Shown here piece by piece: positions 52,201-55,200 of a stretch of DNA of 64,000 bases. The position numbers and the translations under genes were made by a program. Source of the DNA: Malurus cyaneus samueli (taxonomy: Eukaryota > Chordata > Aves > Passeriformes > Maluridae); assembly GCA_009741485.1 (NCBI GenBank), contig CM019220.1:371529-435528 (forward strand). The letters run 5' to 3'. Numbering within the stretch: the stretch's first letter is position 1; each line of letters starts with the position of its first letter. The notes under the pieces are model-generated. The model saw nothing but the letters and a program-made list of their open reading frames with translations. It was not told where the DNA came from and made no database searches.

Positions 52201-55200
52201 GGCACACAGAGAGGAGAAGAAATCAAAATGTCAGAGTCTGGCAAGAAAACATAACAATTAGAGTCTGTGACATTTGGATAGAGTGGATAAGCAGCTGATT
52301 AACGAAGCAGCACAAGAAAAGTAACCTGATGCTCTGACCAGGCCATCTAGTACTGTAATTTAACAACACTATGTCCCACACCCTAACGACCTAAGGACTA
52401 ATTGGATCAGCATCAGGCAAAAGCAAATGACAGATACCTATTGAAGACATGCTCACATAAGCAAATGGAGAAGTAGGACAACTGGCTTTATTCCGAATAT
52501 TCCAAAGCTGTGTATTACTTAAAAATAAACCAGGACATAACCCATATTCCTTCGGGGAAAAAAAACCAAAACAAACAAATAAACCAAACCACAAGGAGAA
52601 CATGGTGTTCACAGTGAATAAAAAGCCTGCACTTCAGTGGCTTTCAGAACACTGCTTCAAATGAATGTGAATCCCTTTAAAGACTGCATCTGTTAAAGAT
52701 CTCATGTTTTGCCCACAATTATTCATATAAAATATTCAATTGAGACACTCGTTAATTTTACTACTTAGGCAAAAAATAAAACACATAATAATACAAAAAT
52801 TACTTCAGATCCTCTGAGTATGGAAAATAGTGGAACTACATTCAGACACAACGTGTATCATAGTACAGAGATGGGTTATCCAAGAAGCAAACATTTTCTC
52901 TTTTATCTTTCCCCCACCACCTTCCCCGCCATGAATTTTGCTTTTGGAAGGTGCAGTGAGGAGCTCCCTGCAGAGAACATACAGCCCTTTGCCAGGGGAA
53001 AGATCCCAAGCTCCCATAGCCACACCAAACTGATGAGAAATGAGGTAACTGAAGCGCTGCCGAGTCACTGGGAGCAGCGGGATTCAGGTACCACCCGATG
53101 GCTACACAAGGCAGGTGGTGGTTTCAGCAGACAAACAGCCAGCAGGCAGAGATGCCCAGGGGCTGCCCCTCTCCCAGCAATGCCCTCTGCTCCCGGGTGC
53201 TCTGCAAAGCCAGCTGAGCCCCAGGATGGAGGGTCCTGACACAATGAACACCTTTCAGAAGTGAAAACTCACCTTCGAAGCGAGGCGCCTGACAGAATCC
53301 CCTGTGTGAGTTCTGTGCTCAGGACATGCCAGAGCCTTCACTGTGCTGCTGTCACCCGACAGAGGGGCACACACCATGGGGAACTGGCTCAAGGGAATCT
53401 CCTGACAGCAGTCACCACCTGCTTTCAAGGACAACAAACAAAAGAGACCCAATTTGCTGACAGCGGACGGCTTTCCAGGAAAACACCACAGATTATCTTT
53501 ATTGCTAGAGTCAAAACTGAAACTGAGCAACATCACTAAAAGAAGCCTCCAACTAGTCTGATAAAAAAGGCACACATTTCCAACTTCACAATTCTAAAAC
53601 AACTCAACTGACTTTTAGACCAACACTACAGAATTACTGAAAGCAAAACCATGCTGATGTGAAGAGTTTCCTTCAGAAAATTACATATAAAATGTCTCAT
53701 TTAAACCAGTAGTTATTATATGACTGAACTCTTAGGAAATTTACATTTTTATTATTAATAATATTTCAAGTGTCACATGGGGAAGTAGCAGTAATGACAG
53801 TCTCACATCCTTCCAGTAAATGTAGGCACTGGACTGATCTGGTAGCAGGATGCTATGGATCTCAGTATAAGACAGAAGGGGTTTCTCCATAGCTTGATTT
53901 TTACCTCTACAAAAATTCTGTGGAAAGCACAGAGAGAGTACAGAGCAGGAAAGAAACACTCACTGCTCCCTTTCCAAACGTGTGGGAGACAAGGCTGCTG
54001 AAGTCCCATCCCCAGTCTGGGGTACACCCTGCCCCATAAAAGAAAGAGATGCTGCACACTGCCTCCATGTTCCCACGTCTCTGATAGCCTGAGCCCACAT
54101 TTATCATGTCAAAGGTATTTGTCAGAACATAAAATTTTAACTCCTTCCTTTACTCATCAGAAGAATAAAATGTTTGCTGAAGACTTGATGTGGCCAGGCT
54201 ACCTTAAGCCAAAAGAGTAAACATCTGATGCTGTTGTCAGCACACTAACACAGAGCACGACTCTGAAAAGGAACATACTTTTGGGAGATGAACCAGGGCT
54301 GCTGGAAGCTATTTGTCTCATGCAAAGGAACATACTTTTGGGAGATGAACCAGGGCTGCTGGAAGCTATTTGTCTCATGCAAAGGAACATACTTTTGGGG
54401 GATGAACCAGGGCTGCTGGAAGCGATTTGTCTCATGCGACTTCCATGGCAGCTGAGTGCCACCAGTCGGGAAATGACTGCAGTCTTCCCAAATCCCACAT
54501 TCCCAGTGATGATGGCTCCCCTGTTCTGTGCTGGGTCAGGATTCTGCAGTTTTTCTTCAATGGCACGAAAGAGCCATTCTCTCCCAACAAACACTGAGTC
54601 TGTAGTTATGCTTGGAACCTCAAACAACAGGGGCTTCAGCAAAATGTCCTGAGGCTTATAGGGGATGAAACGAGCTGAAAAGACGTGTCAGGGAGAAAAG
54701 TTCATTAGAAAAAACTTGCCACACACTCAAAAAGCACAGTTTCAGAAGGTAACATCATTTAGAAGCCTTGTTACTATCAGTCAAAAACCAATGTTCTAGT
54801 GCTTTCATCATGAAAACAATAAAATCTGATTGTCTCAGTTCAGGTCATTTCCATAATTTTTGCATGAATTAAATTATAGAGGAAAGAAGCCACAAGTATA
54901 ATCTAACAATATTTTTATAATATAACTAAATAAGTTGTAGAATCCAATAAGTTTTCTTAAAAATACATTAATAATTCTACAAATTCAGAAGCACCATTTT
55001 TCAGTTTTGAGTAAACTGTGTGCTGAACATCTCGTGTTAGGTCTTCAAATCTGTAAAGACACTTGCAGAGAAACAGAAAAAGTTACAGAGAATAAAATAA
55101 TTTTCTGTTAAAAAAATCCCTTGAAGTAATACGAAAATTTACTATCTTGTTTTCCTGTGCTTTTGAAGTCACAGCATCAGAAGTTACACTTTTGATTACT

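Follow-up and report, generated by a model that had tools for sequence, protein, structure and literature searches.

Alternative splicing reportedly arises from tandem arrays, to judge by the title of a study by Zhuo et al. from 2007 on introns from such arrays. In the available text on human repeats, tandem repeats at exon-intron boundaries can alter the splicing pattern, while exonic ones add amino-acid repeats (PMC2812944). The human MSH6 variant c.3936_4001+8dup duplicates 74 bp in tandem, 66 bases from the exon and 8 from the intron. The allele is reported to give no normal transcript and none from the upstream donor; clones from one carrier showed downstream donor use and exon skipping in a ratio of 7:1, and the skipped form was found alone in some other carriers (PMC9818763). 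For near-equal donors with long introns, the accessible sections of Carranza et al. (PMC9225289) report a preference for the upstream site, which was the only one used in minigenes with strong donors; weakening the donors left this preference intact on smaller exons, and larger exons were mostly skipped, and the classical preference is described there as one for intron proximity. The precedents of PMC9225289 and PMC9818763 point opposite ways on the winning donor.

The window analysed here is a stretch of 64,000 nucleotides of the genome of the superb fairy-wren, Malurus cyaneus samueli (GenBank assembly GCA_009741485.1, contig CM019220.1, positions 371,529 to 435,528), and the gene studied in it is, judging from sequence comparison, almost surely TANC1, which encodes a synaptic scaffold protein. 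Twenty-three blocks in the window matched a TANC1 guide in order, and the best long protein matches carry the TANC1 name or its full name. Twenty-one exons joined into a single open frame of 1694 residues, in a model that lacks one base of exon 7 and two of exon 8 (one serine lost) and in which the exon end at 45777, three bases past the donor at 45780, adds one valine. The exon at 53418 has no guide block and was located through its junction; the junction of the exon with the array (A/GT) was set by hand from the sequence, and the other junctions of neighbouring blocks were splice-consistent by computation. The TANC1 protein of Malurus elegans (P0131) showed 97% identity to the window model, and a protein of Malurus cyaneus (P0132) was identical to the single-copy window model over 1596 aligned columns, except for three junction stretches. 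In the genome (1.07 Gb, 1295 contigs), the array region had a full match at one place among the best candidates scored. The only other match among them, at a TANC2-like locus (L002), is distinct from the array region (78% over 86 bases) and has one copy of the exon end.

Other repeats and reading frames are present in the window. Positions 1-3783 hold a minisatellite whose 20-bp unit (GGGATGGGCACACACGGCA) is repeated about 196 times, gap-free in the assembly. Another minisatellite, GC-rich and built on a 35-bp unit with a longer unit of 80 bp, lies at 18387-18765, about 2.8 kb before an ORF at 21605 that is presumably the start of WDSUB1. The ORF 25807-26190 (minus strand) contains a reverse-transcriptase-like stretch, of a kind typical of CR1-type LINEs.

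The array, at 54267-54437 on the minus strand, consists of three head-to-tail 57-bp copies in exact register across the donor of the TANC1 Walker A exon, which encodes GNVGFGKT. Tandem Repeats Finder described it with a period of 57, 3.0 copies, 98% matches, 0% indels and a score of 328; it is not a chance match. The unit corresponds to the last 45 exon bases plus the first 12 intron bases, and the tandem units span the exon-intron boundary. Copy 1 (54381..54437) contains the 45 exon bases and the 12 bases from the donor onward; copy 2 (54324..54380) and copy 3 (54267..54323) are identical over their 57 bp, and copy 1 differs from either at 2 of the 57 positions. These are C at 54424 against A at 54367 and 54310 (ATC/ATA, Ile) and C at 54400 against T at 54343 and 54286 (TCC/TCT, Ser), both synonymous in the exon frame. 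The 3' side of copy 3, TTCCTTTTCAG, continues into the old intron (compare the single-copy relative P0005, ...SMFLFWVIV). The breakpoints have no base in common with the flanks, which read GTC and TCA where the unit ends are GCA and TTT. No exact direct repeat of 15 bases lies within 150 bases of 19 further exon ends of TANC1, a set without the gene's first three donors, and an Rfam search gave nothing at gathering thresholds.

Ended by donor 1, the Walker A exon spans 54393..54674 (minus strand), as placed by tblastn with the TANC1 guide and splice-consistent joining; its length is 282 nt with donor 1, 339 nt with donor 2 and 396 nt with donor 3. The GT dinucleotides lie at 54391..54392, 54334..54335 and 54277..54278 (minus strand), after last exon bases 54393, 54336 and 54279, respectively, and all three donors have the identical context AAA/GTATGT and phase 1. 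The frame is open through the three copies, each extra unit adds 19 stop-free residues, and the choice of donor gives +0, +19 or +38 residues, in frame throughout. Skipping of the 282-nt form of the exon would also keep the frame and would remove the P-loop. The next TANC1 exon, at 53273..53418 (minus strand), follows the acceptor GCAG/GTGGTGAC at 53418; another AG, three bases further upstream, would start it at 53421 (NAGNAG, AAGCAG). Both NAGNAG junction types are annotated among relatives, e.g. SPKTGGDS and SPKSGDS, the TGGD form in 7 of 102 parsed proteins. The introns flanking the Walker A exon measure 1008 nt upstream and 974, 917 or 860 nt downstream for donors 1, 2 and 3, and donor 3 is the only array donor with natural intron beyond +12. 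The original prediction, which had assigned the exon to TANC1 and described a triplicated donor, agrees with these results: the gene, the exon, the three in-phase donors with 19 or 38 added residues and the origin of MFLC in former intron are all borne out. Its coordinates for the array, the three last exon bases and the start of the next exon were all exact, and the two copies farthest from the exon are identical, with two differences in the third, as it had stated.

Copy number differs between relatives, with one copy in ORFs that read into the intron, such as P0002, P0003, P0004 and P0005. In the single-copy read-through ORFs P0002, P0004 and P0005 the exon end occurs once and is followed by MFLF or TFLF into the intron; this matches the outer edge of copy 3 and points to a single-copy ancestor. 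Two short-protein searches gave 154 and 147 matches, the best 120 of each being listed; none of the 130 listed proteins examined, many of which are presumably from TANC2 or from fish, had a second MRQI motif. Among the long proteins (best 120 of 1144 listed), it was found in one, P0132, from the same species. The long-protein search and one of the short-protein searches scored the 7983 candidates with most words in common. The annotated protein of M. elegans lacks the insert, an annotated protein being unable to exclude silent copies in the intron. Pattern scans of viral and genome contigs for a relative's DNA of the exon gave 8 and 187 matches, none of them confirmed. Since no second copy was found among the other listed relatives, the array is taken as a lineage-specific tandem duplication across the exon-intron boundary.

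P0132 itself was rejected as transcript evidence. It has the second MRQI and then joins to MKALACPEH; this junction, placed from 54357 to 53340, has GC instead of GT directly after the cut, and two more junctions also differ from those of the window model. P0132 looks like a model built by homology that read past donor 1.

The recent expansion that had been proposed from the similarity of the copies is weakly supported, 2 against 0 differences in 57 bp being too few to decide. At substitution rates taken as 2e-9 to 4e-9 per site and year, 2 differences in 57 correspond to about 4-9 My with an uninformative interval of 0.5-32 My, and 0 differences in 57 to an equally uninformative upper bound of 7-13 My; the intervals of the two copy pairs overlap widely. 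Of the two duplication steps, the second is probably the younger. At the ATC/ATA base the TANC2-like locus agrees with copy 1 (ATC), which is weak evidence for a derived state in copies 2 and 3. The chance that both differences would be synonymous if all changes were free is about 0.04, which hints faintly at translation of the copies; copy 1, coding in any case, may also be where the two silent differences arose.

The added residues would fall in the linker, taken as the residues after MRQIAS up to VVAYH. Among the best 120 of 1144 long proteins, the linker has 59 residues in 80 and 55-63 residues in 116, the four outside this range having 43 (P0132), 50, 50 and 53; of the 119 listed relatives (birds and reptiles), 116 are within 55-63. 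In the window it has 57 residues with donor 1 and would reach 76 or 95 with donor 2 or 3, respectively; S, T, P, G, N and Q make up 46% of it. Between relatives the linker is 72% identical, versus 99% for both flanks (102 of 119 parsed, 67 of these with a 59-residue linker). It thus drifts in sequence and barely in length, and this nearly fixed length argues against free tolerance of longer forms. In published models of the TANC ATPase, the lower-quality parts are insertions matching long disordered loops, as stated in the accessible text (PMC5533708). Structure models of P0149 (Chlamydotis macqueenii TANC1-like) reached a mean pLDDT of 31.6 with 17 sequences and 36.0 with 65 sequences, itself included, and were discarded as unusable; the second showed the linker as coil with block pLDDT 22-26, most of the protein being equally low.

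The U1 duplex energy was -1.8 for each array donor; among the 20 distinct TANC1 donors scored, one alone pairs more weakly. The array donors match 6/9 of the donor consensus, as many others do, and by this measure are not weak for TANC1. Local folding gave donor accessibilities of 0.57, 0.51 and 0.52, with no clear difference. The weakest pairing energy among the donors scored belongs to the TANC1 exon end at 41197 (minus strand; ATT/GTATGT). A possible cryptic donor, AAG/GTAGCC, is present at 54202 (minus strand), 76 bases past donor 3, with a U1 pairing of -6.2 versus -1.8; its use would shift the frame.

The reading preferred here, with a confidence slightly above an even chance, is a lineage-specific, frame-neutral duplication with one dominant donor, a slight favour for donor 1 and no regulated switch. 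A tandem duplication in the fairy-wren lineage, reaching from the last 45 bases of the Walker A exon to the twelfth base of the intron, would have doubled both the exon end and its 5' splice site, and a second step, by slippage or unequal exchange between copies, would have brought the copies to three. The array may have persisted because every donor choice, even skipping of the 282-nt exon, keeps the frame, and the change would fall in the linker after the Walker A helix. Since the three donors are identical, position and context would decide among them; one would dominate with minor use of the others, and a regulated switch is not expected. Donor 1, which gives the ancestral-length protein, would be slightly favoured because both flanking introns are long; it is considered more likely than donor 3, not by much. 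We infer the order of events, the donor usage and the near-neutrality in this account. Counted in its favour were the identity of the linker (72%) against that of its flanks (99%), the single copy in relatives and at the TANC2-like locus, and introns of the long class favouring the upstream donor in the available text of PMC9225289. Counted against it were the MSH6 allele, with no upstream-donor transcript in the available text of PMC9818763, the natural intron beyond +12 at donor 3 only, the 76 or 95 residues that lie out of range, the ordinary consensus of the donors (6/9) and the synonymous nature of both copy differences.

The strongest alternative, unlikely but of some weight, is that donor 3 is used nearly always, because the natural downstream intron is kept there alone, and that TANC1 constitutively carries 38 extra residues. 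The unused upstream donor in the MSH6 clones (PMC9818763) and the classical intron-proximity preference (PMC9225289), both as given in the available texts, agree with this, and the kept frame and the two synonymous differences fit translated copies. The long introns on both sides, which in the accessible text of PMC9225289 favour the upstream donor, and the nearly fixed linker length in relatives argue against it.

It is improbable that cells choose donor 1, 2 or 3 as regulated, graded isoforms tuning a serine-rich linker by the P-loop, with up to six forms if the NAGNAG acceptor is included. Graded TANC1 isoforms from the array are possible on sequence grounds, the donors being identical, in phase and stop-free and the linker of the window having the S, T, P, G, N and Q content given above; however, the array was found in one species only among the listed relatives, equal donors need not be equally used, and linker length is conserved. 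Still more doubtful is a three-step length dial, in which donor proportions would vary by tissue or state to give linkers of 57, 76 and 95 residues, copy number would vary among birds, and one minisatellite would determine how many isoforms of this synaptic scaffold are made and in what mix.

Very little probability is given to the array acting as extra U1 binding sites that raise inclusion of a weak-donor exon, with the residues as a by-product, a proposal compatible with the other readings. The weak U1 pairing of the donor, as judged by energy, is in line with it, as is the skipping seen in minigenes when weakened equal donors were placed on larger exons (PMC9225289, available text); against it, exon skipping was seen on the MSH6 duplication allele (PMC9818763, available text). 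The donor is also ordinary by consensus, and the listed relatives manage with one copy. An assembly artefact, with one or two copies in the bird and three in the contig, is equally remote: near-identical short repeats are prone to misassembly and P0132, probably from the same assembly, is no independent proof, but two bases are private to copy 1, there is no N in the window, the 3.8-kb minisatellite carried through suggests that a 171-bp array is within reach of the assembly, and assemblers collapse repeats more often than they expand them.

With three perfect in-phase donor copies and long flanking introns, the locus is a natural test of exon-side against intron-side proximity, and it also bears on how a splice-site duplication persists when its length is divisible by three. 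No published report of a triplicated TANC1 donor was found among the search listings of an open-licence literature collection; tandem duplication across an exon-intron boundary is a known kind of event, according to the available parts of PMC2812944 and PMC9818763. The human internal tandem repeats of PMC2812944 are, in the text available, boundary repeats varying in number like the TANC1 array; they lie in human segmental duplications and their boundary cases form novel introns (27 intron modifications), whereas the TANC1 array lies in a gene with one full genomic match and adds donors, with no new intron. The competing equal 5' splice sites that PMC9225289 describes for minigenes and human transcripts resemble TANC1 in having donors of equal strength and one acceptor, but the cases in its available text have two donors, in engineered or alternative 5' site events, and no tandem array. 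The closest parallel in nature is MSH6 c.3936_4001+8dup; it and the TANC1 array both duplicate an exon end with a few intron bases and multiply the donor; the MSH6 duplication, as described in the accessible text, is of 74 bp, not divisible by 3, with two copies, a frameshift and disease (PMC9818763), whereas that of TANC1 is of 57 bp, in frame, in three copies and in a reference genome.
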